From a virus: a stretch of DNA of 27,341 nucleotides. Where the stretch lies: positions 1-27,341 of IMG/VR virus record IMGVR_UViG_3300048126_000571; one strand, 5' to 3'. Position 1 is the first letter of the stretch, and each line of letters opens with the position of its first letter. The position numbers and the translations under genes were made by a program. The notes under the pieces were generated by a model. It saw nothing but the letters and a program-made list of their open reading frames with translations. It had not been told where the DNA came from and searched no databases. Positions 1,646 through 24,000 of this stretch are shown piece after piece.

Positions 1646-4600
1646 ATGGCTCAGCAAAGTTTAAAAAATCTAGATTCATTTTCAAGAGGTTACATTGAAG
1701 ACGTAAGATCAAAAGTAGATTTTGATACTACGCGACGAGCTATTACGAGTGACAGTATTGAAGCTGGGACAAGCATTACGATGGCTTCAATACCAGCACT
1801 TGTTATCGATGGAAGTATTCCTGCAGAAATACAAAATCCATTAGTTGGTAAAGTTATATCAGGTAAAGGGATTGTTGGTACACCTCGTGTGACAGCTATA
1901 TCTGCAGATCGACTTGTAATTACGTTTGATCAGCCACAAACATTAGATGCTAGTTTAGGCCCAATTGCTCTCACTTTTAGTGATACAAATTCAGGTATAG
2001 ATCAATATGAATTAACTGGGTCTGCTAAGTCAAGGTCTAAAGAAGATATTCGAATTGATGATTTAGTTCCAGAAGAATTATTAGAATACGCAACAAATTC
2101 TGCGTATGGAAGTAATGATACTGGTGGTATACGCACATTCTTAGAATCTTATTATAAGTATATGAACTTGGAAGAGTTTACTTATAAAGATGTAGAAGTA
2201 TTTGAAGATATCGTTATTGACAACCAGGCTATTTTTAGAATTAATGTTCCAAACAAATTTTTCCAAAGAAATTTAGTATTAGCTGCAAAATTCTTTGATG
2301 CTGATGGTTTACCTTTGCTTGTTGGTGACGAAGATGGATCTCCTACTCTCGTAGGAGAGGATATATTATTAAATGATAGTGCTCTATTGACTGTTGGCCA
2401 AAGCTACCAAATTACGAGCTTAGGAGATGGTTCAGAAGCTAATATCGCTTTAGGCATAAACAATATTACAGGGCAAGAAGAAAATTCATATGCAGTAAAT
2501 GATGTATTCGTTGCAACTGATGATGGTACTGGATATGATGCAACTCAAGGTTCGTCACCAGTAAGTGTAAAATTGCTTTCATACCCTACGGTCATTGATG
2601 ATATTTTTACTAAAAATATTAGTATTAGTAATGCAAATAAATTGCCCGGAAGATTAGAAAACTCAGCTGAACCAACAGGTAGAACTTTAAATATTTATGG
2701 TTTATCACCAAGATTGAATAAACGTAAGATTAGAATGGAAACTTATGTTTATAATTATATCGAGGCTGGTCCGTCATATCGTTTAAACACAATAGAAGAT
2801 TCTCTAAATCTAAATGAAGCTCAAGAAGAATTTTTAGATTTAATGCAAAAGGAAATTGCTCCTGCATTAGATAAAACTTCGCCAGTTAATAAAAGAGCAG
2901 TATATGAAAAGATAATCGATTTTTATAAAATACGTGGCTCTTTTGAATCGATTGAAACATTCTTTAAATTATTATATAACGAGCAAGAAATTCAAGTTAA
3001 CTATCCGTGGGATAATACACTTAAGCCTTCTTCAGGTCTTTATGATCCTAAGTCTGCTTTTGCTGTAAACTATAGTCAAACACAATTAATTGAATCAAGT
3101 GATAACGCTAATAATGATACGTTTGGTAGATCTATTTCAGTAAGCGGTGATTCTTTTGCATCTGGCTCGCCTAAACAAGAAGCTGCAACTGTTGATATTA
3201 CAACGGATGCAGCAGCTAATGCTGGCTCAAATAATAGAACTATTCCATTAGCTAATACGACTGGCCTGCAAGTTGGCATGGTAGTTACAAGTGTGACTGA
3301 TGCAAGTAATATTACTTCTAACAGTAAAATCGCATCTATCGTCAATGGTGTAAGTATTACCTTAGATAAAAATATAGCAGAAAATATTGGTAGTGGCGAT
3401 ACTATAAGGTTTACCGGCCAAGTTAATGCCGGCGCGGTGTATGTATTTACTACTACAGACAAAGGAACGTCGTATACTGAAGAAGCAAAAATTGTAAGTA
3501 CTGCCACAGATGCCGATACTGGTTTTTCTGGAGATAATTTTGGTCGATGTGTTGAATTAGATGGAGATACTTTAGCAATATCTGCACCTTCTGATGAAAC
3601 TACTCTTGGTACAGCATCTACTGGTTCAGTTGAAATATGGGAACGTAGCAAAAATGCTTCCGGCAATAATGTTTGGTCGTTTAATACTAAAATTATAGCT
3701 CCGGTTGCAGGCGAAAGATTCGCAAATGGCAATGAATCTGTGTCTTTAAGTGGTGATTATCTTGCAGTAGGTCACGTTGGTTTTAATGATGATCCTACTA
3801 ATGAACCAGAAGGTGCAGTAGTAATATATAAAAGAGTTGGTTCGACATGGGTCGTATTACAAACATTAAGAGCTCCTACTACATTAAATTCAGGCGCACC
3901 TGCGAATAAAGGATTTGGTGAAACTGTTGTATTAAAGGGAAAATACCTTGTTGCTTCTTTTCAAAATTATTCAACAGCTTCAGTTTCAAAAACTGGTAGA
4001 GCAATTGTTTATAAGAAAAACGATATTACTGGTTTATACGAACAAGATGGAATATTGCAACCAACAAATGATATTGCAAATCAGCTTTTTTCAAAAGCAA
4101 TTGATATCACAAATGTAGAAAATGGATCACCACGAATTGCTCTAACAAGCCGGGATAATCCCTATCATACTATATACATTTTCGAAAGAGGTCACGCACT
4201 AGGAGATAGTACGGCAGAAGAAGCTGCTTCATGGCATCCTTTAAATTCTCTTCCAAGTACTGTGATTCCGAGTATACGAGATAATACAAACTATGGTGGA
4301 ATTGTAAGAATAAGCGGCGATAATTTAGTTATTGGTGAGAATGGGTATGATGAAGTAAATGCATCTAATAATGGTAAAATATATCACTATGAATATAATA
4401 ATGATACCAATATATGGGATCCAAAATTACAATATAGAGGTGATATAACTGTAGCAGAGTCTAACTTTGGGTTTGGTCTAGATTTGTCAGATGATGATAA
4501 AGGTTATTTAATTGTTGGTTCACCAGGCAAGATTGATGGGACAGGAAATCAAAAGGGTTTCGTAAGGTCGTTTAATAGACCAGCTCTTTCTGGATCATAT

Positions 4601-6157
4601 ACAACTTCAGCAGGATTTCTATCAGAGAAAAATATAAAAGTACATGACTCTGATTTTTATCAAAAGTTTTCTTATGTTGTAAAAGTAGGTCGAAACTTAG
4701 CTCAATGGAAAGAACCATTTGATAAGTTAGCTCATCCTGCAGGGTTTAAATATTTTGGTGAAGTATTACTTGTATTACAAGCTGTTCGTAATGTATTAGG
4801 CGATACTACATCTAATACAACTGTAGGAATAGGTGCTGATACAGTTACATATTTAAATTCATATAGCGCATCTCCTGCATTCAGAAAAACAATGTCATCA
4901 ATGCCCGGCATTCAGCCTGGTTATATCGGTATTGAAGATATAGGTTTACTGATAGAAGCAGTTGCATCAGTCTTTGGTATTATTGGTCTAGCTAGAACAA
5001 ATAAAGATGCTAAGCTAACAGTTAGTTCAGTTGCAGCAAATGGTGCAATTACTGGTATATCTATCGCAGAGCCAGGACATGGATATGCAACTGCACCAAC
5101 GCTTACGATAACTGGAACTGGAGCTGCAACGTGTACTATTAATTCTAAGGGTGAAGTAAACAGTGTTACTATTACTACTCCTGGCACTGGATATAGTACA
5201 CAAACAAATATAGTAACTCAAAAATTATCTGAAGTTTCAAATTCAGGTACAGTAAGACAAATCGGTAAGACTAGTTCTACTACATTGGGTTTGCAGTTAA
5301 TTGGATTAAATAATAAATCATATACGTCTACGCCACTAATTAGTATTTCAGCACCAGATGCTCGAGAAGCAAATGGTCAACCATCGGCTTCAAATGTACA
5401 AGCTACTGCTACTCTTACGAGAAATGCTGGGACTGGAAAAATTACAGGATTTACAATTACTAATCCTGGTAACGGATATCTAAATGATGCTAAGATAACA
5501 GTAGAATACGCACCAGAAAAGCGCGCTCCGGATTATACACATAAAAAGATTATTCCATCTAATCACGATGTTGAAATTAAAGAAGTGTTACCAGAAAATA
5601 ATTATTTTAATCGTAAAGATCGTATACCAGTTACAGAATATAATGTAACAGTTCAAAGTAAAAGCGATAATTCGGGCAATGCTTTTTATATAGACAATGA
5701 TGAAGCAACTGCATTATCATTAGTTCGTGGAAAAACGTATAGATTTATACAAAGCGATTTAAGCAATGTTAATCACCCACTTAAATTTTCTAGAGTGTTA
5801 AATGGTACACATGTCGACGCTCTGGAATATACGACGAATGTAACTTACGTTGGATTCCCTGGCACAAGTGGTTCTTATACTCAAATTACAATTCCACAAG
5901 ATGCACCACTAGCATTATATTATTATTGCTCAAATCATATTGGTATGGGATCTTCCCTAGCTATATCTGGTAAAAATGTAGCTAAGGAAAACCCTGCATT
6001 TTTAGGGCAAAAGAAATTCCAAGGGAATTATAATATAAATAATTTTTCTAACTTCACAATAGAAGATATAAACACAACAATCAATGATGGAACTGCTATA
6101 AATAAATTAAACATCCAAGCAAGTTTATCAGACGCAATTAAAGAAACTACACTATAG
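1646..6157 (+). CDS. 7: Baseplate wedge protein gp7, greatly enlarged with inserted domains
   Basis: T4-type gp7, the wedge subunit that links gp6, gp8 and gp10 in the baseplate. Length is 1503 aa against 1032 in T4. Family signatures include the N-terminus MAQQSLKNLDSFSRGYIEDV, RTFLESYYKYMNLEE (about residues 165-180), IIDFYKIRGSFESIETFFKL followed by YPWDNTLKPSSGLYDP (about 425-475), and FYQKFSYVVKVGRN...HPAGFKYFGEVLL (about 1008-1050). The extra length sits in inserts: a small beta module (residues 41-111), a VGQSYQI module (246-308), an apparent seven-bladed FG-GAP propeller (about 486-978), GxGY repeats (about 1124-1288) and a cupredoxin-like domain (1332-1442). It lies three bases after gp6 and its TAG stop overlaps the ribosome binding site of gp8. 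The Shine-Dalgarno sequence is weak, so coupling to gp6 is likely. Core identity is confident; insert functions are inferred. Confidence 0.88.
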   Translation: MAQQSLKNLDSFSRGYIEDVRSKVDFDTTRRAITSDSIEAGTSITMASIPALVIDGSIPAEIQNPLVGKVISGKGIVGTPRVTAISADRLVITFDQPQTLDASLGPIALTFSDTNSGIDQYELTGSAKSRSKEDIRIDDLVPEELLEYATNSAYGSNDTGGIRTFLESYYKYMNLEEFTYKDVEVFEDIVIDNQAIFRINVPNKFFQRNLVLAAKFFDADGLPLLVGDEDGSPTLVGEDILLNDSALLTVGQSYQITSLGDGSEANIALGINNITGQEENSYAVNDVFVATDDGTGYDATQGSSPVSVKLLSYPTVIDDIFTKNISISNANKLPGRLENSAEPTGRTLNIYGLSPRLNKRKIRMETYVYNYIEAGPSYRLNTIEDSLNLNEAQEEFLDLMQKEIAPALDKTSPVNKRAVYEKIIDFYKIRGSFESIETFFKLLYNEQEIQVNYPWDNTLKPSSGLYDPKSAFAVNYSQTQLIESSDNANNDTFGRSISVSGDSFASGSPKQEAATVDITTDAAANAGSNNRTIPLANTTGLQVGMVVTSVTDASNITSNSKIASIVNGVSITLDKNIAENIGSGDTIRFTGQVNAGAVYVFTTTDKGTSYTEEAKIVSTATDADTGFSGDNFGRCVELDGDTLAISAPSDETTLGTASTGSVEIWERSKNASGNNVWSFNTKIIAPVAGERFANGNESVSLSGDYLAVGHVGFNDDPTNEPEGAVVIYKRVGSTWVVLQTLRAPTTLNSGAPANKGFGETVVLKGKYLVASFQNYSTASVSKTGRAIVYKKNDITGLYEQDGILQPTNDIANQLFSKAIDITNVENGSPRIALTSRDNPYHTIYIFERGHALGDSTAEEAASWHPLNSLPSTVIPSIRDNTNYGGIVRISGDNLVIGENGYDEVNASNNGKIYHYEYNNDTNIWDPKLQYRGDITVAESNFGFGLDLSDDDKGYLIVGSPGKIDGTGNQKGFVRSFNRPALSGSYTTSAGFLSEKNIKVHDSDFYQKFSYVVKVGRNLAQWKEPFDKLAHPAGFKYFGEVLLVLQAVRNVLGDTTSNTTVGIGADTVTYLNSYSASPAFRKTMSSMPGIQPGYIGIEDIGLLIEAVASVFGIIGLARTNKDAKLTVSSVAANGAITGISIAEPGHGYATAPTLTITGTGAATCTINSKGEVNSVTITTPGTGYSTQTNIVTQKLSEVSNSGTVRQIGKTSSTTLGLQLIGLNNKSYTSTPLISISAPDAREANGQPSASNVQATATLTRNAGTGKITGFTITNPGNGYLNDAKITVEYAPEKRAPDYTHKKIIPSNHDVEIKEVLPENNYFNRKDRIPVTEYNVTVQSKSDNSGNAFYIDNDEATALSLVRGKTYRFIQSDLSNVNHPLKFSRVLNGTHVDALEYTTNVTYVGFPGTSGSYTQITIPQDAPLALYYYCSNHIGMGSSLAISGKNVAKENPAFLGQKKFQGNYNINNFSNFTIEDINTTINDGTAINKLNIQASLSDAIKETTL
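1766..1978 (+). repeat. Dispersed beta module type A, copy 1 (in gp7 N-terminus)
   Basis: Residues 41-111 of gp7: TSITMASIPAL, then LVGKVISGKGI, VTAISADRLVITF and a final IALTF. It shows the same order of elements as five other copies in this window: a short strand, 'L.VG..V', an 'I.sI....ITL' hairpin and a closing '.I.F' strand. This is the most divergent copy and was identified by eye. Confidence 0.5.
2339..2358 (+). other. 8-bp perfect hairpin inside gp7
   Basis: TCTCCTAC (2339-2346) and its exact complement GTAGGAGA (2351-2358) flank a TCTC loop. It lies in frame in the gp7 codons for SPTLVGE, just before the VGQSYQI insert. No T-tract follows, so it is not an intrinsic terminator. It may be an mRNA structure or coincidence. 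Confidence 0.5.
2381..2569 (+). repeat. Dispersed module type B, copy 1 (VGQSYQI module in gp7)
   Basis: Residues 246-308 of gp7: ALLTVGQSYQITSLGDG, a hydrophilic stretch, then VNDVFVATDDGTGYDATQG. The pattern 'vGxxYxIxxxG ... vgdxFxaT..GtG' is shared with segments of the DUF4815 protein (12971-13180) and the fibre (20420-20611). It resembles short beta modules often seen as inserts in phage tail proteins. Its function is unknown. Confidence 0.5.
3100..4578 (+). other. FG-GAP-type beta-propeller domain within gp7
   Basis: About 490 residues holding seven repeats of the FG-GAP kind, each opening with an 'FG.sv.lsGd.laigap' strand pair and closing with a 'g.vyiy.r' strand. Repeat openings are near 3118 (FGRSISVSGDSFASGSP), 3535 (FGRCVELDGDTLAISAP), 3712 (RFANGNESVSLSGDYLAVG), 3908 (GFGETVVLKGKYLVAS), 4081 (LFSKAIDIT), 4287 (YGGIVRISGDNLVIGENG) and 4460 (FGFGLDLSDDDKGYLIVGSP). 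Seven blades is the usual number for an integrin-alpha-like propeller. The insert falls between the conserved gp7 segments YPWDNTLKPSSG and KNIKVHDSDFYQKF, which in related phages I would expect to lie close together. Classical DxDxDG calcium loops are not obvious. A role in surface binding is inferred. Confidence 0.65.
3230..3418 (+). repeat. Dispersed beta module type A, copy 2 (inside propeller blade 1 of gp7)
   Basis: NNRTIPLANTTGLQVGMVV, then NSKIASIVNGVSITLDKNI and SGDTIRFTG. This is the clearest copy of the module. It interrupts the first propeller blade, between FGRSISVSGDSFASGSP and the blade's closing strand GAVYVFTT, so it is a domain nested within a domain. Confidence 0.6.
5015..5509 (+). 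repeat. GxGY repeat region in gp7 (type C modules)
   Basis: Tandem short beta units with the pattern 'I....PGxGY.t.Ptlti.G.G': GISIAEPGHGYATAPTLTIT, then VTITTPGTGYSTQTNI, then FTITNPGNGYLNDAKITV. Between the second and third lies YTSTPLISISAPDA, a degenerate unit. Single units of the same type occur in gp8 (6995-7081) and in the DUF4815 protein (9620-9721). The role is probably structural, adding a beta-solenoid or small barrel; this is inferred. Confidence 0.55.
5639..5971 (+). other. Cupredoxin-like domain in gp7 C-terminal region
   Basis: Residues 1332-1442 read as a single plastocyanin-like beta-sandwich: YNVTVQS strand, GNAFYIDND, LVRGKTYRF, then NHPLKFS with His1377, GTSGSYTQITIP, and finally LYYYCSNHIGMGSSLAI. 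The last segment supplies Cys1428, His1431 and Met1434. One upstream His plus a Cys-His-Met cluster is the type 1 copper ligand set of cupredoxins, though the C-x2-H-x2-M spacing is tighter than in plastocyanin (C-x2-H-x4-M). Similar 'YYYCSNHxGMG' domains occur in other marine phage structural proteins. Whether copper is bound is not shown by the sequence. Confidence 0.65.
6034..6041 (+). promoter_or_regulatory. TATAAATA late-promoter-like octamer upstream of gp8 (distal)
   Basis: Exact match to the T4 late promoter -10 octamer, inside the 3' end of gp7 and 125 bases before the gp8 start. In DNA this AT-rich a few such octamers are expected by chance, so the support is weak. Confidence 0.25.
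6097..6104 (+). promoter_or_regulatory. TATAAATA late-promoter-like octamer upstream of gp8 (proximal)
   Basis: Second exact T4-late octamer, 62 bases before the gp8 ATG and 55 bases after the distal copy. Distance and orientation fit a late promoter for gp8, but it lies in gp7 coding sequence and may be coincidental. Confidence 0.35.
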
Positions 6158-6166
6158 GAAAAAATC

Positions 6167-7915
6167 ATGGCCGCAATAATATCGGGAAACTTTAGATCAC
6201 TTAACGCTGCAGCTTTCGTCGATGAAATAAAAGGCGATAGAAGTAACGTATACGTTGGATTAGGTAAATCTAGTCCATGGGGAGGAACCACTACAGCTAA
6301 TACTAGTGATACTGATGCTCCTACACCAACTGACACACTAGAAGCAATTAACGAAGCACGTCAACAGCTTATCGGACTAAAATTAGTTACTGATGCCGAC
6401 GTATCACATGTTGTACCAAGATATGATTGGAACGCAGGCGCTGAATTTGTTGCATGGGATTCTACTGATCCAGCTATTTTTGATAAAGCTTTCTATTGTC
6501 TAACTGCAGACTTTAAAGTTTATAAGTGTATTGTTGCTCCAGTTTCTGGTGGTGTATCTGATGTTCCAACGCATACTGATGCAGCTATTACTGCTACGAC
6601 TGATGGTTATTATTGGAAGTACATGTATACTATTCTAGCAGCTGATTCTGAAAAGTTTTTAACAAATTCCTATATGCCAGTTAAAACTCTAACAGAACAA
6701 ACAAAAGGAACTGTTGCTGCTGCTATTTCTAATTCAAATACATTTACTCTTGACTTTGAAAATCCTAGGATTCAAGTAGGTCAAATTATTACTGCAGATA
6801 ACACTGGCGGTACATCAAACATTGATGCTGATACGACTGTTGTGTCTGTAAGCGGTAAAACTATAGTAGCTTCTGCCAGTATTACAGCTTTACATGATGG
6901 TAATATTGTAACCTTTGGTAATTTTTTATCAACTGATTCAAAGTTTTTGCAACAGCAATCACAACTTACTTCTAGGGCTCTAGGCTCAGTCAGTGGTATT
7001 GAAAGATTAAAATTAATAAGTGGTGGTACTGGTTACACTAGTGCAAATACAGGACTTGTTATAACTGGTGATGGGACTGGTGTCGCAACTCCAGGTACTA
7101 TTAACGCAAATTATATTACTGGCGGTGCATTTACTAGTGATATTATTCTTACAGGAGATGCTGCTACATCAGGTACTGATGTTGTTGGTACTAATTTTAG
7201 TGTTGCACAAGCTACAGTTACTTCATCTGATTCTGGTGCTTCAGGTGCTGAATTTGAACCAATTATTGCTCCACGTGGTCGACCAGGATTCAGTACAGCT
7301 AGTGCTAGTGGTGGACATGGTACAGATCCAGTATTTGAACTTGGTGGTTTTTATGTAGGACTTAATGTTCAAATAAGCGGAACAACTGATACAGCAATTG
7401 CTAATACTCAAGACTTTAGACAAATATCACTCATAAGAAATCCTCTTATTGGTGGTGTAATTCCAACAAATCCAGTTTCAGCAATTAATACATTAAAATT
7501 TATTTCTTATGATACTGCTCATACTGGTGGTGATAATAGTGCATCAACCGCTTATGCAACTAAAGGTGCTAATTTAGCTTTAGCTGCACAGGCAAATGAT
7601 CATGTGATCGAAAATAGTAGTACTGGATTTAAAGGATATATAGTTAATGTAGATACAACTGCTAAAAGAATTTACTACTTTCAGAATGATCTAACCGGTT
7701 ATGTTGCACCAACCGATGCTGATATGGTAATTAAGACTGGTGGGCAAGCAGTTGCTGGATTTGCAATAAGTGCAAGTACAGATGATATAGGAATTGGCGC
7801 AGCACCAAATAACTTTAATGCTGGATCTGGTGAAATGTTATTCCTTGAAAATCGTGATCCAATTCAAAGAAGCACATCACAGATTGAAGACGTTAAATTA
7901 ATTATAGAATTTTAA
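6167..7915 (+). CDS. 8: Baseplate wedge protein gp8, enlarged
   Basis: T4 gp8-type wedge protein, which with gp6, gp7 and gp10 builds the baseplate sector. The N-terminal third is typical of the family: ISGNFRSLNAAAFVDEI, SNVYVGLGKSSPWGG, VVPRYDWNAGAEFVAWDS, FYCLTADFKVYKCI and DGYYWKYMYTI...KFLTNSYMPV (to about residue 170). T4 gp8 is 334 aa; this one is 582. The extra length includes a type A beta module (188-251) and a GxGY unit (about 277-305). The C-terminus SGEMLFLENRDPIQRSTSQIEDVKLIIEF is family-like. The ATG has an AGGA Shine-Dalgarno at 6156-6159 overlapping the gp7 stop, so start choice is clear. Family assignment is firm. Confidence 0.9.
   Translation: MAAIISGNFRSLNAAAFVDEIKGDRSNVYVGLGKSSPWGGTTTANTSDTDAPTPTDTLEAINEARQQLIGLKLVTDADVSHVVPRYDWNAGAEFVAWDSTDPAIFDKAFYCLTADFKVYKCIVAPVSGGVSDVPTHTDAAITATTDGYYWKYMYTILAADSEKFLTNSYMPVKTLTEQTKGTVAAAISNSNTFTLDFENPRIQVGQIITADNTGGTSNIDADTTVVSVSGKTIVASASITALHDGNIVTFGNFLSTDSKFLQQQSQLTSRALGSVSGIERLKLISGGTGYTSANTGLVITGDGTGVATPGTINANYITGGAFTSDIILTGDAATSGTDVVGTNFSVAQATVTSSDSGASGAEFEPIIAPRGRPGFSTASASGGHGTDPVFELGGFYVGLNVQISGTTDTAIANTQDFRQISLIRNPLIGGVIPTNPVSAINTLKFISYDTAHTGGDNSASTAYATKGANLALAAQANDHVIENSSTGFKGYIVNVDTTAKRIYYFQNDLTGYVAPTDADMVIKTGGQAVAGFAISASTDDIGIGAAPNNFNAGSGEMLFLENRDPIQRSTSQIEDVKLIIEF
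6728..6919 (+). repeat. Dispersed beta module type A, copy 3 (in gp8)
   Basis: Residues 188-251 of gp8: SNTFTLDF, RIQVGQIITADN, DADTTVVSVSGKTIVAS and DGNIVTFG. It keeps the order of elements of the other copies although residue identity is low. Confidence 0.5.
6995..7081 (+). repeat. GxGY unit in gp8 (type C module)
   Basis: GIERLKLISGGTGYTSANTG followed by LVITGDGTG. It has the same pattern as the tandem units of gp7 at 5015-5509. Confidence 0.5.
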
Positions 7916-7933
7916 TAAAGAGAAATTAAAAAT

Positions 7934-10900
7934 ATGGCAATTACAACTTTAAATACGAATCCTAATAGTGCGTATACATTAGATGATTTCGATGAAACTA
8001 AAAACTATCATCGAGTATTGTTTAAACCTGGCGTTGCCGTACAAGCACGCGAACTTACACAAATGCAAACTGCCATACAACGTCAGATTGATTATCATGG
8101 TCAGCATAGCTTCACTGACGGTGCCAGAGTTGTAGGCGGCAAAGTTTCTCTTGAAGTCGAATATGATTATATTAAAGTAGAAGATACATTTACAACTGGT
8201 AGTACAGCTTTTGTTACGTCTTCTTATATGGGAGATTATAAAGGTAGCATTATTCAAGGTGCAACAAGTACGGTAAAAGCAAAAGTTCTTCAGGTTATTA
8301 ATGCTGCTGGTACTGATGTTAATGATTCTACTAAAACTGGTATTTTAGATGATGCGTCTGGTGATGCTATTACTTTATATATTCAATATATTGAAGGTGA
8401 TGCTGATCGTGGTGATGGATCAGGTGGTACGTATAAAAAGTTTGTTGCTGGTGAAGTAATTAAACTTTTAGATTCAAATGGCGCCGAAGTAACCGAAAAG
8501 AAAACCCGTGTAGGTGGATTTGGTAATGGCGATACTTTAAATGGTGGTAGTGCTTCAACTGCAACTGCTGCAGAATTTATTGGATCAGGTACATTCGTAA
8601 ATGATGCTACAAATGATTCAGAATTAACTGCTGCTGAATCTGTAGGTGTAGGATCTGCAGCAAATATTGAAGAAGGTGCTTATTTTATTAAAGGTACCTT
8701 TGTTCATGTAAAAGATCAGTCAGTCATATTAGACAAGTATTCAAATACACCTTCTCACTTTATTGGTTTAGAAGTAACTGAAAGTGTCGTAGGATCAACT
8801 AGCGATGCAACATTGAATGATAATGCTGCTGGCACTACAAACCTATCTGCACCAGGCGCTGATCGTTATCAAATTGCTACTAAATTAATTAAGACTGCAA
8901 AAGATAGTACTCCTAACTCTGAATTTACTAAATATGTATTGTTAATGACAGTTGAAGATGGTATTGTTGCTTCTGATAAAGCCCAAGGCGATCCAAAAAA
9001 TACAACTGAGCTTACAAAGAGATTAGCTCGAAGAACAAACGAAGAATCGGGTAACTATAGTGTTGAGCCATTTAAATATGAAGTAAGAGAATATTTAAAT
9101 AATGAAGGCGGTAATAATGGTTATAAGTCAGCTGCTACTATCATATCAAATGAAGACACTGTAAGTAATACTACTGAAGCAAGAACATTTGGTAATAATC
9201 GCCTTGCATTCGGTATTCAGCCAAACACGCTGTATGTTGATGGATTTAGAGTACAAAATTTAAAAACTGAGTATGTAACAATTGAAAAACCTCGAACTGA
9301 GACTCTTCAAGTTGGAGATGTTGAACGAGAAATTAATTATGGTAATTACTTTTTAGTTGAAGCTAGTACTATAAAAGGTATGCCTGATATTAATAACTTT
9401 ACTGTTGCAACATTACAAAACACAAATAATAATAGCACAGCGATTGCGCACTTTAGTAATATTACAGGTGCTGGCCCAACCGCGGGCAGAAACGATAGCA
9501 CTAAAGTAAGATATCAACAAACTGCTGCGCATGCAAGTACTAATAACTTTAAGAAAACAGCAGCTGATGGTACTGTTACAGAAAACTTAGATTTTGCAGT
9601 AACTAATCCCGGAAGTGGTAATGGTCTTATATTTGATCTAACTATTCGATATGATGGATCAGTTATAATTGAAATACTTGACGGTGGTTCTAATTATGCT
9701 ACAAACTGGGACGTAACAATTCCTACGAGTGAGGTTGGTGGTGCTATTGTTAAATTAAATGGTACTAAAGTAGGTTTAGGTACTTGTCGCTTTAGATCTT
9801 TAGAGAAGCATCCTGCAAGTACTGATAATTCCTTAATGCGATTACATGTATTTGATGTAAATGTTACTTCAGGTTCATTAACAGATGTAAAACGATTTGA
9901 TCAATTACATCCTGATGGTACTAGTGGTGCATATACACCCTTCCTTGCACAGACTTCTGCTACTCAAGTTGGTAAATTATATTCTAATGCTAGAACTGGT
10001 CCTTCAACTATTCAAGTATTCCGTATGCCTTTCACTTCTGTTAGACACATGGGATCACATAGTTCGGAAGTACCTCGTGGCAGAACTAAAAAGAGATATA
10101 CCTTTGAAAAAGATAATAATTCAGATACAACTGGAACATTTAATTTGGAATCTGGAGAATCATTAGTAGGTGCAACTGGTTTTTTAACGCAAGATGATGC
10201 AGCTGGTGCAACGTTTACTACTAATGTTGAAGAATCAGGTGGTACTGTTACGGTTAGTGGCTTAAATTCTGGTGAAAATGATGCAGATTGTAATATAATT
10301 ATTACAGTTGAAACTTCACAATCAAGTAGTACTACATTAAGAACAAGAACAAGAGCTTATTCAGATACAAGTGCTGCACCTTTTGCTGCATATGCATTTG
10401 ATGGACATTCACCTATTCGTTTAAACAAAGCTGATGTTGCTAAAGTATACTATGCTTATGATGCATTACACGATAAAACTGGTACAGTTGCTTCTAGTGG
10501 CGGAGCTTTAGGTTCAACTACAATCACGTTAACTGCAGAAGTAACTGGAATTACTCCAGGCATGCAGATAGTAAAAACTGCATCAGATGCAGGCAACTTA
10601 GAACCAATTAGTTATGGTCACGTTTCATCAGTAACTGCAGCTGGTGTTAATCCAACTGTAATTACTCTTGATAGACCATTACCTGCAGTTGCTAACGGTT
10701 TTGGAATTACTCTTTTCAATAACCTAATGGGTCAGTTTGATTTTGATGACGGTCAAAGAGATTCATTCTACGACGAATCAAGATTAAATCCAAAAGGAGC
10801 TGCAGCGGCTATTGATAATTTAAAGATTAAGTTTAAATATTATTCTCATGGTAGCGGTGACTTCTTTACAGTAGATTCATTCACTGGTACTGGCGCTGCA

Positions 10901-13900
10901 GCCGAGAAGCTGTCATACAATCGTCAATATAAATCAATTCCTTTAAGAGATTCTATTGATTTTAGACCTGTTAAAGCTGTAACGAACGGAACAGCAGCTC
11001 CGGCTTTAGGTAAAGAATTTTCGTCTGGTACTGGTGCTATTACTGGTAAGTCACCAGCTGAAGGCCAACGTTTAGTTTCTGATATGGAATTTTACCTACC
11101 AAGGATTGATAAAATTGTAGTCGATAAAGAAGGAAACTTTAGTACTATATCTGGTAAACCTGGATTGAATCCTACTATGCCAGAAGATAGAGTTAATTCT
11201 ATGACTCTTTTCACTGTTAAGTTGAAAGGGTATATGTATAGACCACTACCTGAAAAAGATTTTAAAGTTGTAACTCATAATTATAAACGATATCAAATGA
11301 AAGATATCGCTACTCTTGATGAACGAGTTAAAAAATTAGAGTACTATACATCTTTAAACTTCTTAGAATCTGCCGCAGCAAATCATCATATGACTGATTC
11401 TTCTGGTAATATCATGTTTAAAAATGGTATATTTGTAGATTCGTTTAAAGGTCATAACATGGCTAATGTGAATCACCCAGATTATTTGAACTCAATAGAT
11501 CGTGCTGCAGGTACACTAAGACCTCATTCAAATACTAAGAATGTTCCTTTACGTAGATATGCAAACGATATAGGTGTAACGGGTACTGAGCCAAAGAGTT
11601 CTAAGATTGCTGAAAAGAACTCTATATACACATTACCATATACAAATACACCATTTATTGAACAGCCTTATGCTGCTGATAGTATTAAAGTTAATCCATA
11701 CAATATCTTTACATGGGGTGGAGTAATGTGGCTATCACCAGATAGTGACGAGTGGGTTGATACACAACACCGTCCTGATGTGGTTATTGATCAGGTTGGT
11801 GTATATAATTCACTACTAGCCGTATTAGAAGAAGAAAATACAATAGGTACAGTCTGGAATCATTGGGAAACTATACACACTGGAGTTGATTCAGAGCAAA
11901 TAAGCAATACATTAACTCAGCTAGAAACAGCAAACGTTGATAGTAATGGTGCTGCTAGAGCAATGGCTACTTCTACTGGTACATTACAAGATCACTGGAA
12001 TGCTGGTCAACATAATACTGGGTTTATATCATATGATAACCAACACATTGATGTAAATGCATTAATTAATGATCCAAATGGAGAGTGGTGGGATACTGGT
12101 ACTGATGATAGTAGTGGTATGAGAATACTCGTCGATGAAACAATTACAAGTGAAGTTACTTTCCATGATCAAGTAAGAGATGGCTTTAGAAATGATGTAG
12201 TAATTGATACTGTTACCGAATCACAAGGTACAAAAATTGTTGAAACACAAATTGTTCCGTTTATTAGACCACGTACAATATACTTTAGAGCAGAGCAACT
12301 AAAACCTAATACTAAGTTTTATCCATTCTTCGATGGTATTGATGTAAGTTCATATTGTGTATCAGTTGCACCAGATTATGGTGTTGATGGTTTTATCGAA
12401 TGGACAAAGCAAGAAGCTATTGAAAGTCTTTCGCTTTATAATAAATCTAGTATTGATACAACTGGTCCGTTAATAACAGATGCTGGTGGTAAGCTATTTG
12501 GTAAATTCCAGATACCTAATAATGTTGCTGGCTTGAGATTTAAAACTGGTACAAGAGAGTTTAGACTTTCAGATGATATTACAAATAATACAACGAATGA
12601 ACTTTCTTATGCAGAAGCTAATTATTACGCTGCTGGTAAAATTAATCACTTAGAAGAAACGATACACACAACTCGTGTTCCAAGGATTGAAACTACTCAG
12701 CTTTCTGATTCTCGTACTATTCGCGAAGATGCTGTAACTAAAACTACTCAAAGAGTTAAGTATATTGATCCATTAGCACAAACGTTTATTTGTGATCAAT
12801 CTGGCGGTATGTTTACAACTAAGCTTGATTTGTTTGTAGCTGCGGCTGATACAACTGGTGGTAATGCAGAAAAAGCTAGTATTCCATTACGAGTAGGTTT
12901 AAGATTAGTTGAAAATGGTATACCTACTCAAAAGGCTGTTCCCGGTTCAGATGTAACAGTTTATTATAGTTCAAAAACAAATGGACATAATGCTAATGGA
13001 TTGATTGTAGGCGATACTTATACAATTAAAACCGTAGGTGATGCAAACTGGTCTAATGCTGGTTGGAAAGCTAATCAGGTTGGACCTAACGGTGACAAAC
13101 ATGGTGGAACTGCACAAGTTGGTGATTCATTTGTTTGTACACATGCTACAAACGGTGGTGGTACTACAGGTATAGCTAGAGCAGAAAATACATGTTATGC
13201 TTCAGATATTACAAGTGATGCATCTGTTGCATGTCCTATAACATTCGAGCATCCAGTTTATCTAACAGAAGCAACTGAATATGCTATTGTATTGATTGCA
13301 TCGTCTGAACTTTGGAAGATGTATTTCTCTGAAACTGGTCGATTGGATATCACAGGTTCACCTTCAACACCTGCTGCAATTGTTAAACAACCATATAATG
13401 GTGTATTCTTTACATCACAGAATGCTTCTACATGGTCACCTCATCAATTGAGAGATTTAAAATTCAACTTATATCGAGCTAGTTTTGATGTTAATGCTAG
13501 TACAACAGCTGCAAGTTATAAAGCTAGCTTTGTAAATGATGTGGTTGAAGCTGATAAGCTAGTTAATAATCCATTTACATACATTGCAAAACCTGATAGT
13601 AATACAACCGTAATACGTGTATTCCATAAAAATCATGGTATGTATACTGGTAATCAGTCAGGTGGTGCAAGCACAAGTAAAAACAGTAAAGTTGTATTTA
13701 CAGGCTGTGTTGCAGAAAATGGAATTGCGGCGGCAAAACTTAATGCGGCTGCAGGTCATTTTGTTCATGATATAGAACATGATTCATACTGTATTACACT
13801 AGGTGCAAGTGGAGCTGCGGTACAAGCAACTACTCTAAATATTGTTGGTGGTGGTAGTACAGTATTTGCAAGTGGTAATGTCCAATATAATAGCTTATAT

Positions 13901-14789: not shown

Positions 14790-15005
14790 ATGAAAGGCGA
14801 ATATCAAAAAGTACAAGATAATCCTTCATTAATTCGTGATAAGAGCTCTGGTGCTATTATAAATATAAATGAAACTGCATACAATGCAAGACTAAAGCAG
14901 ATAGAAGATAGTAAAAAGAATGCTCAGCAAACTGAAAAGATCAATAAGCTCGAATCAGATGTTGAAGAAATTAAAAACTTATTAAAACAACTAGTGAGTA
15001 AATAA
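14790..15005 (+). CDS. Small conserved phage protein with C-terminal coiled coil
   Basis: A 71-aa protein. The N-terminal half, MKGEYQKVQDNPSLIRDKSS then GAIININETAYNAR, matches a small protein found near tail genes of T4-like marine phages ('RDxxSGAIxN' motif). The C-terminal half (from about residue 35) is a charged heptad-like helix, KINKLESDVEEIKNLLKQLV, that should form a coiled coil. The ATG at 14790 is chosen over an upstream in-frame TTG at 14775 because it sits one base after the preceding stop. Its own stop overlaps the fibre start in TAATG, so it is translationally coupled to the giant fibre gene. It could be a fibre-attachment or assembly factor; this is inferred from position only. 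Confidence 0.8.
   Translation: MKGEYQKVQDNPSLIRDKSSGAIININETAYNARLKQIEDSKKNAQQTEKINKLESDVEEIKNLLKQLVSK
14858..14865 (+). promoter_or_regulatory. TATAAATA octamer upstream of giant fibre gene
   Basis: Exact T4-late octamer inside the 71-aa gene, about 140 bases before the fibre start. It could drive the fibre gene separately from the baseplate run, but intragenic octamers are expected by chance at this AT content. Confidence 0.25.
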
Positions 15006-18000
15006 TGCCTCAAAATAAAGAAACAAGAGTATCAAAAAATTCAACATTCGAAGAATGGCGTCAATCAACTAACCAAGTATCATTTGATGTTGGTCCTATT
15101 GAAAGTAATGATGATCTAACAGCTGATTCTTTAGATAAAGAGACTAGGCTTACTGATCAGGCTAAGACTGTTTCTGTAGTTACTGGGTCATCTAGTGCTA
15201 CCAACATCGACGTCGGTGCTTCTGCTGGTTGGACTGGTTACAACGCGTTTCATAGTATAGGTAGTGGTAGTAGTAAAGGATCTACTGCCCATACTAGTCG
15301 TAATTATGTAGTAGATGCGTCTGAAATCGTTGATCAAAGATTCTCAGTTGCTGCTAATGGTAATGTTACACTAGCGCCTAATATTAGTATCTATGCTGAC
15401 AATAGCATCACGGGTGCTCAAAACGGTAGTGATGGTGGAATGTTCTTAGAAGCTAATACTTTCTTAGAAAATAATACTCTTAGAGGTAAGACAGTTACAT
15501 TTAGCGGAACTATTAATGCTAATAGCTTACATTCTCGATACTCTGTAAAAGCATTTATTAAATATTTATCTGCAGCTCCTAATTATAACCTATTAGATGA
15601 AGTTACTGCTGAGCTTACTACTAGTAATTCATTTTCTATAACACTAGATATAGCAGAAGGTACAGTAATACCTCAGGTAGGATTTCTAGTTTCGGGTGTT
15701 AATGCTAATGCTGCTGGTAGCTTTGACGATGGTTCAATTGTTATAGAAAGTCTTCAGCTTGCTGTTAGTGCAGGAGCTAGTGAAATTATTAGTGATGCGG
15801 AAGAGTTTATCCGTGATCAATCGAATGGTTTTAATAACGTTGGTATTCGGATCGACTTAGCTCCTGATAAAAAGGTTGACATGACAGCGGGTCATATTAT
15901 TTTTACTGGCGCATCAGGTGCACCTACTGATTTTGTTGCTGGTAAGAATATTGAACAATATACTGGTAATAATAACTCAAATACTCGAGAGTTTTCTGCT
16001 CAAATTGTAAGCGTTGTAAAGTCAGGATCTAATATAACAAAACTTCTTATTACAAACGCAGTAGGTGTATTTAATCCAGCCTTATTAATAGGTTCAGCTG
16101 ATAATTATTCTACCTCAGCTCAACAAATTGCTGCTAATAAAATTGTAAGACAAGTTACTGGTCTATTAGATCATGGTTATGTTCGAGTATATAAAACTAA
16201 TAGCGGTACCACTACTAAGCTAGCACAAGGTGTTGGTATAGCAAATGGATTCCACTTACCTCGAGCAACATTTGCTCTTCCTTTAACATCAGGGTCAACC
16301 CTGCCAGCTACTTATTTGGAAGGCGAAAGAGTTTATCAAACTGCAAATAACACAAAAGAAACTGCTAGTAATGTTGCATTCTTTAGTGCTAAAATATTAA
16401 TTGCGACAACTACTGCAAACAAATATGGTTTAGGTACTCACGGCGGTTTAATATTATATGATACTGATGGAACCTTTGATCCTAGTAAAAATATTAGAGG
16501 TGCTACAGCTGATTTATCTGATGTAAATGCTGTTATAGGAAATGCAAGATACAGCGCAACTCATAATGATTGTGTATTAGATAATACATTTTCATCCATT
16601 ATTCGATTAAATACTCCAGCTGTTACTGGTGATTCCTTTAGTGTTGAATTTGCAAGTGCAGTTGATGCAATCGTAGAAGTACAAGACGACATTGGTAAGA
16701 TTGAAGATCTTGCAACTAATACCGTTCAAGCTAAATTTGGTGCTAGTGCTGGTCAAAAATCACTTGCAACTGGCGATATAGTTACCACTTTAAATACATT
16801 ACAAGATATGATCGGCAATAATGTATTACCAACAATTGCTAATAATAATCATTTGATTCCAGCAAATATAACAACGATTAGTGGTTTAGCTAAAAGCGTA
16901 GTTGATTTTATTGGTGATACTGATTTATCGGATGCAACTTTAGGTGCTACAGCCAACACATCTTCTACTTTGACTGATGCAATTACAACAATTAAAAACT
17001 TTATTGGTAGTACAGATATTTCTGATATCGCTACTGGCGAAAAAATTACTACTACTATTGCACAGCTTCATGATGAAGTCGGTGATGTAACAACACTAGA
17101 TGCAGCCGGTTCGGCAACTGCTGGTGGATTTGATACCGAAGTTCTTACAACAGCTCTTATTGAATTAAGAACTCTTGTATGTCCTGGTGATATTGATACT
17201 GCTCAAACCGCATTGTCTGCTAATGCTGGAAATGCTGCTAACTTCGCCGCAACTACAAATACCGACGGTGTTATTGAGCTACAAAAAATTGTTGGTGATA
17301 GAACAGGACTTAGTACAGATAATCTTATTGGTACATCAGCTGCAACAAACGATATTGTTGCGCAAATTAATCATATTAAAGCCGAAATTGGTACAGCAGC
17401 ACTAGGTACTACTGCAGCTGGTGATATCGCATCAGCTATTAATGAATTAGAAACAAATATCCGTGGCTCTTTAGGCAATTATACTATTGATAATAACTTA
17501 AATGCTGAAGCAACATATGTTATAAACAATGGCATTATAGATGCTCTTAACGATTTAACAACATATATTGGTAATACTGCAATCAGTGGAATTGGTGCTG
17601 CAACTACTATTACTTCTGCTGTTAATAAAATGCATGCAGAGCTTGGAGATGCAGATAGTTTAAATGCTAATCCTGTTACTGCATTAAATGCTGGAACAAC
17701 TGATGGTACTGGTGGATTTAGAAATGCAACTGGTGGTAGTGATGCGACAGTTGTATCAGCTTTAACGGAATTAAGACAAGCGTTACTTGGTGATACAGCA
17801 GCTCTTGCCGCAGTGACTAATGCTCGAACTGATACTGATACTCAAGCTACTTTAGCTTTAGCTAAGGCTGATCTAGCAAATTTAGCTGGTTATAGTAAAA
17901 CAAATATTATTGATGCTATTCTAGAAATCCAAGATTTAATGGGTGATGTTACTTCACTCGATAACGGGGATAATGATTTTAATAGCGCAAGAATTACTGA

Positions 18001-21000
18001 TTCTTTAGTAGAATTAAAAACAGCTCTTGTTGGTACTGGTGATCTTACAGACACAATTGCTACTTTAAATGTAGGCGACGAAACTGATTTTTCATCTACA
18101 ACCGTTGTTAATGCTATTGCCGAACTTCAAACTGATCTTGGTCAACAAAGTCTACTAACTGCATCGCCATTCCATGCAGATTTATATACAACCACAGGAT
18201 CAACTGCATACGCTAGCACAGATTTCCAATTAGCAATTAATGGTATTACTGCTGCAATCGGTAATGCTGATATTGGTAACGCAATTAATAGTGGTAGTAA
18301 TGAAACTCTCACACAAGCAATTAGACAATTAAGAATTGATATTGGTGATGTTGGTGATAGTGGTGTAAATCTAGCTGCAGCTACAGGTTATTCAGCAACT
18401 AATTTAAAAGCGGCTGTACTTGAAATACAAGGTGATATTGGTGATGTAACTAATATCAATAATGCAACTGGTTATGTAGCTACTAGTGCAGTCACTGGTA
18501 TTACAGAAATTCAAGGATTAATTGGTAATCCTGTTGCTACTGCTGCTAACCTAGGATCAATCAATACTCGAGTTCAAAAAGATACTAATGCCGGAGTTGC
18601 TGCCGGAGCAACTACGATACCAATGGGTGATACAACTGGTATCGTAGCAGGTATGACGGTTTCAAATATAGAAACTGGTCGTACTTCAAGTATTGCAGCC
18701 GGGACTAAAGTAACAACTGTTAATGCCGATAATATTGAGGTAGATACAGATGTTGTTTCAACAATCAATGATACTGATACCTTACGATTTGATGTTTCTA
18801 CTGTTGTAAATGCAATTAACGCTATTGATGCTCGCATTGGGCAGGAAATAAATGCAACAACAATGGGTACTACTGAAGCTACGTTAGTACCAGCAATTAA
18901 AGAAATTACTGATGAGCTAGGTGACGTAACTGCAGGTAACCTTGGTACTACATCAAGTACTATTGTGACATCGATAAGAGAATTAGTTGATGGAACAGGT
19001 GCTGCAACAAGGGCAGTTTCTGGTGTTACAGGTTTAAAATCATCGGGTAAATTAGATAAAATATCTGGTACGAGTACTGTAACCAAAAATCCTACAGTAA
19101 CAGCAAATACTGGCCAAGCTAATATTACTGTAGCAGACGCATCTGATCTACTTATAGGTGCAGTTGTTACAGGTGCTAATATTCCAGCAGATGCATATAT
19201 TGAAAGTATTTCAGGTAACGTTATCACATTAAATAAAAATATTACTGTTGCTAATGTTACAACTAGTACAACTCTTACGTTTACTATGGATCAGTCAATT
19301 TTCGGTAATATTAACTTCTTTGCGCCAGGTTCAGTTGATAACGAAGAAACAGTAATGAAATTTGGTCCGAATACAGTTCTCGATGTTTCTGAAGGAACAT
19401 TGAAAATGTCTAGTGCTAGTGCTGCATTCCAGGTTCAAAGTACATACTTAAAACTACAAGGTACATCGAGGACTGGATCTGGTTTACAAATTGATCGTAG
19501 TGAAATGCCTAATGTTTCAATTGAAGCTGGCTCAGACACATTTATTGAATGGCGAGAAGATTTAATTAGTAATAATAATCCAAGTACTGCTCATAATCTT
19601 AATGATTTAGCGTGGCGTGTTAGAGGTTTAACTGCAGATGATACTAGTGCCGCGGCATATACTGTTCCTAATCTCGATTTCCAAAATGCATATCGTCTAT
19701 TTGGTATTGGTATATTTAACAATGCTAATACTATGGATAATGTTACTGTAACATGGGATGCTGCTGAAAAACACTTTAATGTTTCATTAAACGATACAAC
19801 TACTAATATGACAGGTGGTGGTTCTGGTCCAGCTGGATCGGGAGCAACAGACGGTTTAACTGCATGGGGTACAACTGCTAAGATTCCTCAAATTCATGTG
19901 GATCGTCAGGGTCGAATTGCAGGTATTGCAGAAGTTGATATGGCTAACTTCCTCGGAACATTTAATGTTCTAGGTGAGACTGGTACTCAGACCGTTGCAT
20001 CAGGTAATAATCTTAAATTTGTTGGTACTACAAACGGAACTACAACTGCTGTAACTGATGTTAGTGGTACAAGAACTGTTACAATTGGATTAGATAGTGA
20101 TGTTAGCATTACAAATAACTTAAATGTTGGCAATGACTTTAAAATTAATACAAACAAATTTACAGTTGATGGTACAACTGGTGATACCACAATTGCTGGT
20201 GCTTTAGCTGTAACAGGTTCTATTACTCAAAGTGGTGGTGGATCATTTGGATTCTCTACTACTTCTGCTACAGTTTCATCAAAATCTATTATATTAAATG
20301 CATTGACAACTAATGCAAATGCCGATATTTCAGCTGGTACTAATCAAGCATATCTTCCTGCCGCGGCTTTTATTGCTCACCGTGGATTTAAAACAAGTAC
20401 TGATGTAATTGCAATTGTAGGTGCATTAACGAAAGGTAAAAGATATCGAGTTAAACAGCTAAATACTGGCCAGGCAATTACCAACGCAGAACAAACTGCT
20501 CTAAAAGCAATAGGTGGTGGCCTGACTGACAATCTTGCAAATAACGATATTATTACGGCAGCAACGACAGGTAGTGCTGCTCTTGCTTCTGGTAGTAATA
20601 TTAGATTAAATGAACAAGAACCAGAGGCCAAACTTGCATGGAGCGAATCAAATAGTCAGTTTGTATTATATAGAGGTTCGGACTCAGCAGATGTAAGTAC
20701 AGATACAACTACAGGTGCAATCATTGCTCAAGGTGATACGATTGGATCTGCTACGAAGTTTACTGCTGCTGCAAATAGTGCTAATGAAAACAAACAAGTG
20801 CTCTTCGCGGACGTTACAGGTTCTACTTCACAGCTTCAAAGAAATTCTGGTTTATTATTTAATCCAAGTACAAATAAGCTTACATTAAGCGCTGGCCAAT
20901 TAGATCTTAGTGCTAATTTTAAACATCTTAATGGTATAACTAATATTAATACTGCCACGAACGCCAAACCATTCGAAATAAGCCGACTCGGCGGTAGTGA

Positions 21001-24000
21001 AAGTCAGGTAATGAAAGTTGGTATTACTGATAATGTCGCTATATTTGATTATATTGAAGATACAACTTCTGAAGGTAAGAACGTATTCGGTAAGTACAGA
21101 TTCCTCTTAAACGGTAATCATGGTGATGCTGATGAAATTACTGATCGAATGGCGCTTGAGATTAATAAAGATTCTATTATTGCTCGTGGTCTTACAGTTA
21201 ACACTAATGGTATTGCTGTTACTGGTGGCTCTACACTAGGTGGTGCATTAAATCACACCGGTATGTTTACTCAAGAAAGACACGATGTTGACGGTGCAAC
21301 TGTACTCGGTCATGAATTAAATAATAGAATAATTGGTGCACATTTCCAAAGTAAAGTTACGACTTCTGGTAATAAATCAATTCTGCAAATTGAAGATCGA
21401 CGTTCTACTGCGACTACTGATGGAGCTGAAGTATATAGTAGTGCTACAAAGGGAATACAACACCGGATAGATGGTACTTACATGAGTTTCCTTGACTTCC
21501 AGGCAACAAGTGGTCATGATCATCAAGCAATACTTGGTGGTATATCTCATGGTGCGCGTAAAACTTATATTAGCGGTAATGGTACAACTGCAACTAAAAT
21601 ATACAATAATACTAATAATGCTGCTGCATCTGAATTAGTTTTAGAAACTAAAGCAAGTGGTGTTAATGTTATTGGTAACATGGAAGCAGATTCGGCTGAT
21701 GTAACTGGTAATTTAGTAATTAGAAATGCTGCATTCCCAACAGCTCAAGATCCAATTGGCGGCGCTGATTCTAATTATAATTTAGCTCCGGCTTCTCCAT
21801 TACATATTCTTAAGAGAAGTGCTAATTTGCAAACTGATAATGTATTAGCTACATTTGAAGTACATGGGGCAGATTACGGTGCTACTCCTGGCAAAATCTC
21901 TATTGACTTTAAAGGTCAAGATACAAATAATAAAACAAATTTTGCTCGAATCTCTCAAGCTACAGTTAATGATATTGATTACGGTGATAACAATGAAGCT
22001 ACTTCTAATCTAATCTTTGGTGCTACATCTAACGGTGTGTATGGCGAGAAAATGATTATGACTGGCGGAGGCCGATTAGGTATTGGTTTGCTCAAGCCTA
22101 CGTGTACTCTTGATGTTGATGGTACAACTAAAGCAGCTAGCTTTGTAGTTAATCGTGATGAACCTTCATCAGTAACGGTACAGCAATCTACAATTCCGGC
22201 TGGTCAAACTACTAACTCAATTAATAAAATAACATTAAGCAATAATGGTAATACTGATAGACTTGGTCTAATGCGAGTACAAAGTACACAGTTAGGAACT
22301 ACGGCTGGTAACAGTACGAATCAAGCTGTTTTTGTATGCCGTAATGGTAATACTTCATATTTACAAGTAATCGACCAAAGAGATGGGGATGGTGCAGATT
22401 GGACAACTGCTCATAAACGTCTTGAGTTTGGTATCGATACTACACGTATGAGCTATATTGCACAAAACCTTAATGAAGATTATGGTTTAGAAATTGGTAC
22501 TGCTGGAAATTCAGGTGCGGTGAGTGCAGACAGCTTTACACCACAACCATGGATTCGATTTAGAAAAGCAGCTTCAGGCAACGGCGCTGGTGCTGTTGAA
22601 TTGTATCATGGTAATTCTGGTACTTCTACTAAGAGACTTGAAACAACTTCAAGCGGTGCAAACCTTACTGGTGATTTAACAATCCCAGGAACCGGTAGAA
22701 TATTTATTGGTGATCACGATTACTCTAATAGTGCTCATGGACAAGCAATTGCAAACGCGAAGCTTCATATCAGATCTAATGATGCTAATGACGCTAAGCT
22801 TATTATCGAAGCAGATGCTGATAATAATTCGGAAGGAGCAAATGCTGCACTTGAATTGTGGCAAGACGGTCAACGCGTTGGTGGCCGGATTGAAACAACA
22901 GCTAGTAACGGTGTGCATGCGACGGATTCACTCGATAACTCATTACTTATTTCTGCAATGAATGATGTTGGTGGAAACCAAGCTCATATACAGTTTGCTA
23001 CTGATGGAGATGCACCGCAGTACGGTACAGCTATTGGTAAAGTCAGAATGACAATACTCGATCAGGGTAATGTTGGTATTGGTGTTAATGATCCTGATCA
23101 AAAATTAGAAGTTAGCGGTAATATTAAGTTAAGTGGCATCATCGATCAAAACGGTACTGGCACTAATGACTTCGAAGGTCAAATTGATTGTAATAAGGAT
23201 GTTAAAACAACTGCTTCAGGTAAAGGTTTCTATGCATTTGGTGGTGGTAGTGATTACCTCACAATGACTCATGACGGATCTGGTGGTCATATTACTTCAT
23301 CTGATAAGCTAGAAATTGAAACTCCGACTTTTGAAGTTCGTAAAAGTACTGCTGGTGAGTTAATGATTAAAGCCGTACAAGACGGTGCAGTAACTCTATA
23401 TAATAATAATCTTCAAAAATTAGTTACTACTTCAAGTGGTGTACGAATTGGTCGTGATGCAGATGATGTTGCTTTAGCAAACTATGTAGACGGTACAAGG
23501 TTTAATCCAAGTAATCTTGAAGTTAATCAGATCACGTTTGATCGCGGGCTCAATAGTAATGACGCTGCTTATATAAGATTTGTTTCAACTGCAGCTGCTG
23601 ACAATCCTGCAACAGGCAATCGTTCAGCTTTAGATATTAAAATAACTGATGATGTGTCTGATACTGCATCTACTGCTGATAAGATTAGAATGAGAATGCA
23701 ATCTGGTTCTGTTAATAGTGGTAATGAATATTCATTGGTAGAAATTTCTGGTAAATCAAATGGTTCTACTCGAATGGATCTTACACAGAGTCCAGGAACA
23801 ACAAGTGAAGTAATAGCAGATACATTTTCTGGTGATTTAGCTGGTAATGCTAGCACTGCAACAACACTATCTACTACTCTTGCAGTTGCTAAGGGTGGTA
23901 CTGGTAACACAGCATTTGCAGATAAGGCTGTTATTATTTCTCAGGACAGTGGTACTGATAAATTATCTGCTGTAACAATGTCGACAAATGGCCAGCTACT

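Follow-up and report, generated by a model that had tools for sequence, protein, structure and literature searches.

The gp7-type baseplate wedge protein encoded here carries, between its two conserved wedge cores, a segment that is predicted to form a complete seven-bladed propeller of the FG-GAP_2 type with the integrin-alpha fold. Models and alignments together confirm that this propeller has been inserted as a single module into a surface loop of the wedge core. Neither the fold nor the repeat family is new, and a gp7-type protein with FG-GAP repeats is already known from cyanophage S-MbCM6; the novelty lies in one integrin-like ring within the wedge core itself, at a loop that is empty in the closest relatives. 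A search of literature that included few subscription journals, on FG-GAP with phage baseplate, tail or cyanophage, found no description of such a domain.

Insertion between the gp7 wedge cores

The window, by which we mean the whole stretch of 27,341 nucleotides analysed, is a 27.3 kb contig from IMG/VR, from a marine virus of bacteria. Profile families on either side of gp7 identify a gp6-type gene (2-1642) and a gp8-type gene (6167-7915), an order that matches T4, phiM12, HTVC008M and Mosig. The isolated phages nearest to the window in gp6 infect Pelagibacter and Methylophilales, at about 35% identity. Further along, positions 15005-25333 encode a 3442-aa virion-type protein, following a 2284-aa DUF4815 protein; its first half contains many near-repeated, coiled-coil-like segments. 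The features of gp7 are collected in Table 1.

Table 1. Features of the gp7 gene, its wedge cores and the predicted propeller (positions in the window; residues of gp7)
Feature	Position	Strand	Evidence
gp7-type baseplate wedge protein	1646-6157	+	Single open frame, 1503 aa; PF23786 Baseplate_wedge in two stretches; PHROG baseplate wedge families
Conserved N-side wedge core, residues 384-467, ends ...YPWDNTLKPSSGLYD	2795-3046	+	Profile match to HTVC008M/Mosig/Melnitz, phiM12 and T4 gp7; PF23786 positions 189-218
Inserted stretch, about residues 468-988, replacing the ~7-12-residue linker of empty-site relatives	3047-4609	+	Alignment with L039, L041, L047, L048, L160; gap counts over 137 distinct cores
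Predicted closing ("velcro") outer strand of blade 7, residues 478-482	3077-3091	+	AlphaFold2 strand, model residues 54-58 (window) and 10-15 (L005); assigned to blade 7 by strand order
Predicted blade 1, residues 496-617, nested domain included	3131-3496	+	AlphaFold2 strands; PF14312
Nested small beta domain, ~80 aa, residues 511-592, b-c loop of blade 1	3176-3421	+	Presence/absence in relatives
Predicted blade 2, residues 636-684	3551-3697	+	AlphaFold2 strands; PF14312
Predicted blade 3, residues 699-741	3740-3868	+	AlphaFold2 strands; PF14312 below cut-off
Predicted blade 4, residues 761-804	3926-4057	+	AlphaFold2 strands only (both models)
Predicted blade 5, residues 814-870, holds invariant SRDNPYHT segment	4085-4255	+	AlphaFold2 strands only (both models); conservation
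Predicted blade 6, residues 882-931	4289-4438	+	AlphaFold2 strands; PF14312 below cut-off
Predicted blade 7, residues 944-977, three strands, completed by the closing strand at 3077-3091	4475-4576	+	AlphaFold2 strands (both models)
Conserved C-side wedge core, residues 985-1050, begins GFLSEKNIKVHDSDFYQKFSYVVK...	4598-4795	+	PF23786 positions 233-280; profile match to many marine gp7s, phiM12 and T4 gp7

The whole window gp7 belongs to the baseplate wedge family PF23786 (28.2 bits against a curated cut-off of 27), which it matches in two pieces 540 residues apart, at residues 425-455 (profile 189-218) and 996-1039 (profile 233-280). Taken alone, each half falls below the cut-off of 27, as is expected if an insert splits the match, while the empty-site sister L160 gives one continuous match over profile positions 174-280.

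A wider comparison used two core profiles against loci from three further viral-contig scans, and yielded 137 distinct gp7 cores. The cores listed were selected by similarity, from at most 80 loci per scan, so that the proportions of the gap classes are not population frequencies: the core-to-core gap is 7 residues in 40 and 12 residues in 19 (59 of 137 thus being empty), 76-172 residues in five, 341-420 in 52, 421-600 in 16 and more than 600 in five. Eleven of the 16 cores in the 421-600 class are those with the propeller, with gaps of 435-519 residues. The empty form reads ...TLIPSSGAWDASQGQYLDHKGWLSDEIKIQDSDFYQKFSYLIR..., whereas in the window form ...TLKPSSGLYD is followed by the propeller and then by AGFLSEKNIKVHDSDFYQKFSYVVK.... 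Empty-site gp7 proteins (L160, L039, L047, L048 and others) are homologous to the window protein on both sides of the site and downstream of it (SSMPG.QPG.IG.ED), and they are its closest lineages in the tree, but they have 7-12 residues in place of the propeller; no PF14312 match occurred anywhere in the empty-site records searched. T4 gp7 likewise shares both cores, detectable at 729-759 and 862-897, and has no PF14312-type propeller in the roughly 65-100 residues between them, which leave no room for one.

The original prediction, that the repeats interrupt two gp7 segments which adjoin in related phages, is therefore borne out by the short linkers among the cores listed, by the unbroken profile match in L160 and by the alignment with empty-site gp7 homologues. 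The alternative that would have undone it, in which the region is an ordinary conserved part of gp7, describes the small propeller clade correctly (11 of 11 members) but fails beyond it.

Two relatives depart from the intact gp7 frame of the window. In L008 (4874-9351) gp7 appears as two overlapping frames, split inside propeller blade 1 by a frameshift or a sequencing error. In L001 (2407-6915) a single base in 4512 differs from the window and creates a stop at codon 1241, either a nonsense variant or again a sequencing error.

Repeats, blades and closure of the ring

The sequence evidence for the repeats comes from PF14312 (FG-GAP_2), which matches the whole window gp7 in four stretches with 64.3 bits (curated cut-off 23, E 1.2e-17) and was found in all 11 family members scanned. 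A DNA-level search placed these stretches at 3074-3178, 3476-3631, 3674-3826 and 4286-4384, corresponding to blades 1, 2, 3 and 6, with DNA-level scores below the cut-off at blades 3 and 6. Blades 4, 5 and 7 are too diverged for PF14312 and draw their support from the structure models. The second family named in the original prediction, PF01839 (FG-GAP), gave no match in the window at E 0.001 and weak matches in five of the 11 family members. Within PF14312, the window protein shares the repeat sequence at a score above the curated cut-off, but differs in presenting one seven-bladed ring inside a phage wedge core.

PHROGs, searched with the propeller alone, returned no match, and in isolated phages its matches, to nt-1 and Phosso, were all weak. 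Vibrio phage nt-1 (402 aa) and cyanophage S-TIM5 (407 aa, annotated as a virion structural protein) encode proteins of propeller length with PF14312 repeats, but as stand-alone genes. The genome of Sinorhizobium phage Phosso (L018) matches an FG-GAP query in 14 places, and at 4057-12912 it encodes a giant protein with FG-GAP-like repeats along nearly all of its available length. PDB sequence searches with the protein and with a propeller profile found nothing meaningful, and the fold therefore rests on predicted models and on their Foldseek comparison.

AlphaFold2, run on window residues 425-1130 with an 11-row alignment, produced seven four-stranded blades across residues 478-977, with pLDDT of about 50-90 in most ten-residue blocks of the propeller and low confidence on either side of it. 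A model of the L005 propeller, which lacks the nested domain and shares 89% identity with that of the window, reached better confidence (mean pLDDT 76.4, pTM 0.83) and showed the same seven blades. In Foldseek the top ranks were taken by integrin alpha5 and alphaIIb chains (E 1.4e-11 to 2.8e-11, TM 0.60-0.63), and a comparison with predicted viral proteins recovered several FG-GAP proteins, one of them from S-TIM5. The seven repeats originally read from the sequence are thus upheld by the profile match for four blades and by the modelled blade count for all seven, and their expected arrangement as a closed, integrin-alpha-type ring agrees with both models and with the leading structural matches.

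The resemblance to the integrin alpha propeller extends to the seven four-stranded blades, the N-terminal closing strand and the best structural match (E 1.4e-11, TM 0.63). Identity is, however, only about 14%, and the integrin calcium loops (DxDxDG-type; pattern D.[DN].[DNS]G) are absent from all 12 sequences. Judging from strand order, the ring would be closed as in integrins: in sequence blade 7 stops at strand c, and the first strand of the insert completes it. The boundaries first proposed, 3100-4578, cover the seven blades but leave out this closing strand.

Blade 1 contains the nested domain, which is present in the window, L002 and L003 and absent from L004, L005, L006, L009, L010, L011, L013 and L014. 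As L005 lacks it despite being closer to the window than L003 is, the domain appears to have been gained or lost by recombination. No second copy was found in other window proteins at profile level, and in style the domain resembles the small modules that fill the gp7 site in L146, L183, L187 and L195. Strand order would place it on the free face of the propeller, away from the termini. Although it recalls the I domain of some integrins, it is a different domain and sits in the b-c loop of blade 1.

Other occupants and history of the site

Across the 137 distinct cores listed, the gp7 loop is a recurrent insertion site: it is either empty or holds a small domain, a ~350-residue module, the propeller or a very long stretch. 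In L146, L183, L187 and L195, which are relatives of the empty-site phages, the occupant is a small beta-rich module (76-172 residues). The gp7 proteins of the HTVC008M/Mosig/Melnitz type share both wedge cores and the gene order, but their site holds a different module of ~350 residues, a non-FG-GAP stretch that measures about 360-515 residues in HTVC008M, Mosig and Melnitz. YHYH domains lie between the gp7 cores of P-HM2 and L061. The virion protein at the gp7 position of S-MbCM6 (7022 aa, YP_007001806) has its wedge cores at 661-741 and 3448-3508, and at the site some 2700 residues that include YHYH and concanavalin-A-like lectin domains; it also contains FG-GAP_2 repeats, but these follow the C-side core and so lie outside the insertion site.

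Phylogenies were built from the two gp7 cores (162 columns) and from a longer alignment (404 columns). In the first tree the 11 propeller members are monophyletic (support 100) and adjoin the empty-site L160 (79); this pair lies within further empty-site lineages (63-78), and the empty and propeller group as a whole has support of 100. The second tree repeats this nesting, its inner branches being less well supported (72, 58, 56 and lower). The simplest reading is that the propeller was gained in an empty-site ancestor; because its nesting among empty-site lineages is moderately supported (58-79), such a gain is favoured over repeated loss but is not proven. Of the small-domain occupants, the three retained in the tree (L146, L183 and L195) take separate branch positions, which suggests that the site has been used repeatedly.

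The C-terminal part of gp7 carries a further variable domain (residues 1325-1442, window 5618-5971), present in the window, L002, L006, L009 and L011-L014 and absent from L003, L004, L005 and L010, and resembles sequences, up to 52% identical, in virion proteins of S-TIM5 and other cyanophages. Its invariant residues, His, Cys, His and Met (NHP ... YYYCxNHxGMG), are arranged like the ligands of a type-1 copper (cupredoxin) site. The domain gave no cupredoxin family or PDB match, and a copper site is therefore only a guess from the motif.

Divergence and probable role of the propeller

Within the clade, mean identity is 0.65 for the propeller, 0.91 for the N-side core and 0.87 for the C-side core; the corresponding dN/dS values are 0.27, 0.06 and 0.08, with similar synonymous divergence in all three. 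The propeller thus changes at about four times the rate of the wedge core while remaining under purifying selection. The same pace is seen in the N- and C-terminal parts of gp7, so it marks a peripheral part of the protein and not a receptor-binding part in particular. Hypervariable outer loops were not found: mean entropy on the presumed outer face was 0.94, against 1.13 on the attachment face (p 0.13), a difference in the opposite direction. This counts against a binding face, since a receptor-binding face engaged in an arms race would be expected to be the more variable. The presumed free face does carry a conserved patch near blades 5-6 (DNPY, RD.T, K..Y.GD), a candidate that could be either a binding site or a docking interface.

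On balance, we think it probable that the propeller is a swappable adhesion module, inserted in the gp7 wedge loop so as to face outward and to bind the host or its sugars. In this model the N-terminal strand of the insert closes the ring and brings both ends side by side on one face, so that the module could be spliced into a short loop and leave the wedge undisturbed. Both ends would leave from the face of the a-b and c-d loops, and from this topology the opposite b-c/d-a face should be free and point away from the wedge. As established for T4, gp7 is expected once per wedge and six times per baseplate. Six copies of such a module may bind reversibly to the host surface, or to the sugars or matrix around it. 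That the site is empty in the closest relatives and differently filled in distant ones, the same loop being a recurrent acceptor of other modules, suggests that the propeller is probably swappable and outside-facing. Adhesion is the most likely role mainly because lectin-like domains occupy the site in other phages; the faster divergence, the outward face expected from topology and the lectin-like domains at the S-MbCM6 site all fit a binding role.

The main rival is that the propeller is an internal docking or assembly platform that holds, in place of the host, another virion protein, such as a tail fibre, the large DUF4815/VrlC-like protein or a neighbouring wedge. Beta-propellers are common protein-protein platforms, all seven blades are retained in each of the 11 clade members under purifying selection, and the invariant outer-face patch on blades 5-6 resembles a conserved interface. 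Yet the propeller is missing from sister lineages whose gp6-gp7-gp8 order is the same, and unrelated modules, lectin-like ones included, fill the site in other lineages, so that no conserved baseplate partner appears to require it; we regard this explanation as rather unlikely. It is less probable still that the insert is a decoration, neutral or of slight use, with gp7 gathering beta-rich modules at permissive loops and the propeller being mainly bulk. Marine gp7-type proteins do vary in length between about 670 and 7000 residues and bear numerous added modules, and the nested and C-terminal domains come and go even among close relatives, but seven complete blades kept by purifying selection over 60-70% identity are hard to reconcile with mere bulk.

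Lower-ranked Foldseek matches included sialidases, which raises the idea of an enzyme of the sialidase or glycoside-hydrolase type that degrades a surface polymer. We consider this very improbable: by sequence the propeller is FG-GAP_2, in structure it is best matched by integrin propellers, which are not enzymes, and neither the window gp7 nor the 11 family members matched any sialidase or hydrolase family. Finally, two genes might have been joined in metagenome assembly, and the frame change that splits the region in L008 could be taken as a sign of this. Eleven distinct contigs from different samples nevertheless carry N-core, propeller and C-core in this order in one frame, and L001, from another sample, is identical to the window over gp7 bar one base. 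Such independent contigs imply reads across both junctions, and we reject an assembly artefact, giving it a negligible probability.

If the propeller is indeed an exchangeable adhesion module, a broader picture becomes possible, which we put forward tentatively. Marine T4-like phages may use the gp7 loop generally as a place to exchange adhesion modules (propeller, lectin-like, YHYH and small beta domains), which would form a second, modular receptor-binding layer of the baseplate that is independent of the fibres, with the free face of the propeller accepting further modules in turn. Wedge cores have been seen as a conserved scaffold of the contractile tail, with host recognition left to the fibres. 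The exact insertion point is now identified, and it is one that evolution has used repeatedly. As empty, differently filled and propeller-filled versions of one loop provide a clean comparison, the idea of exchangeable binding modules on the wedge core is directly testable.
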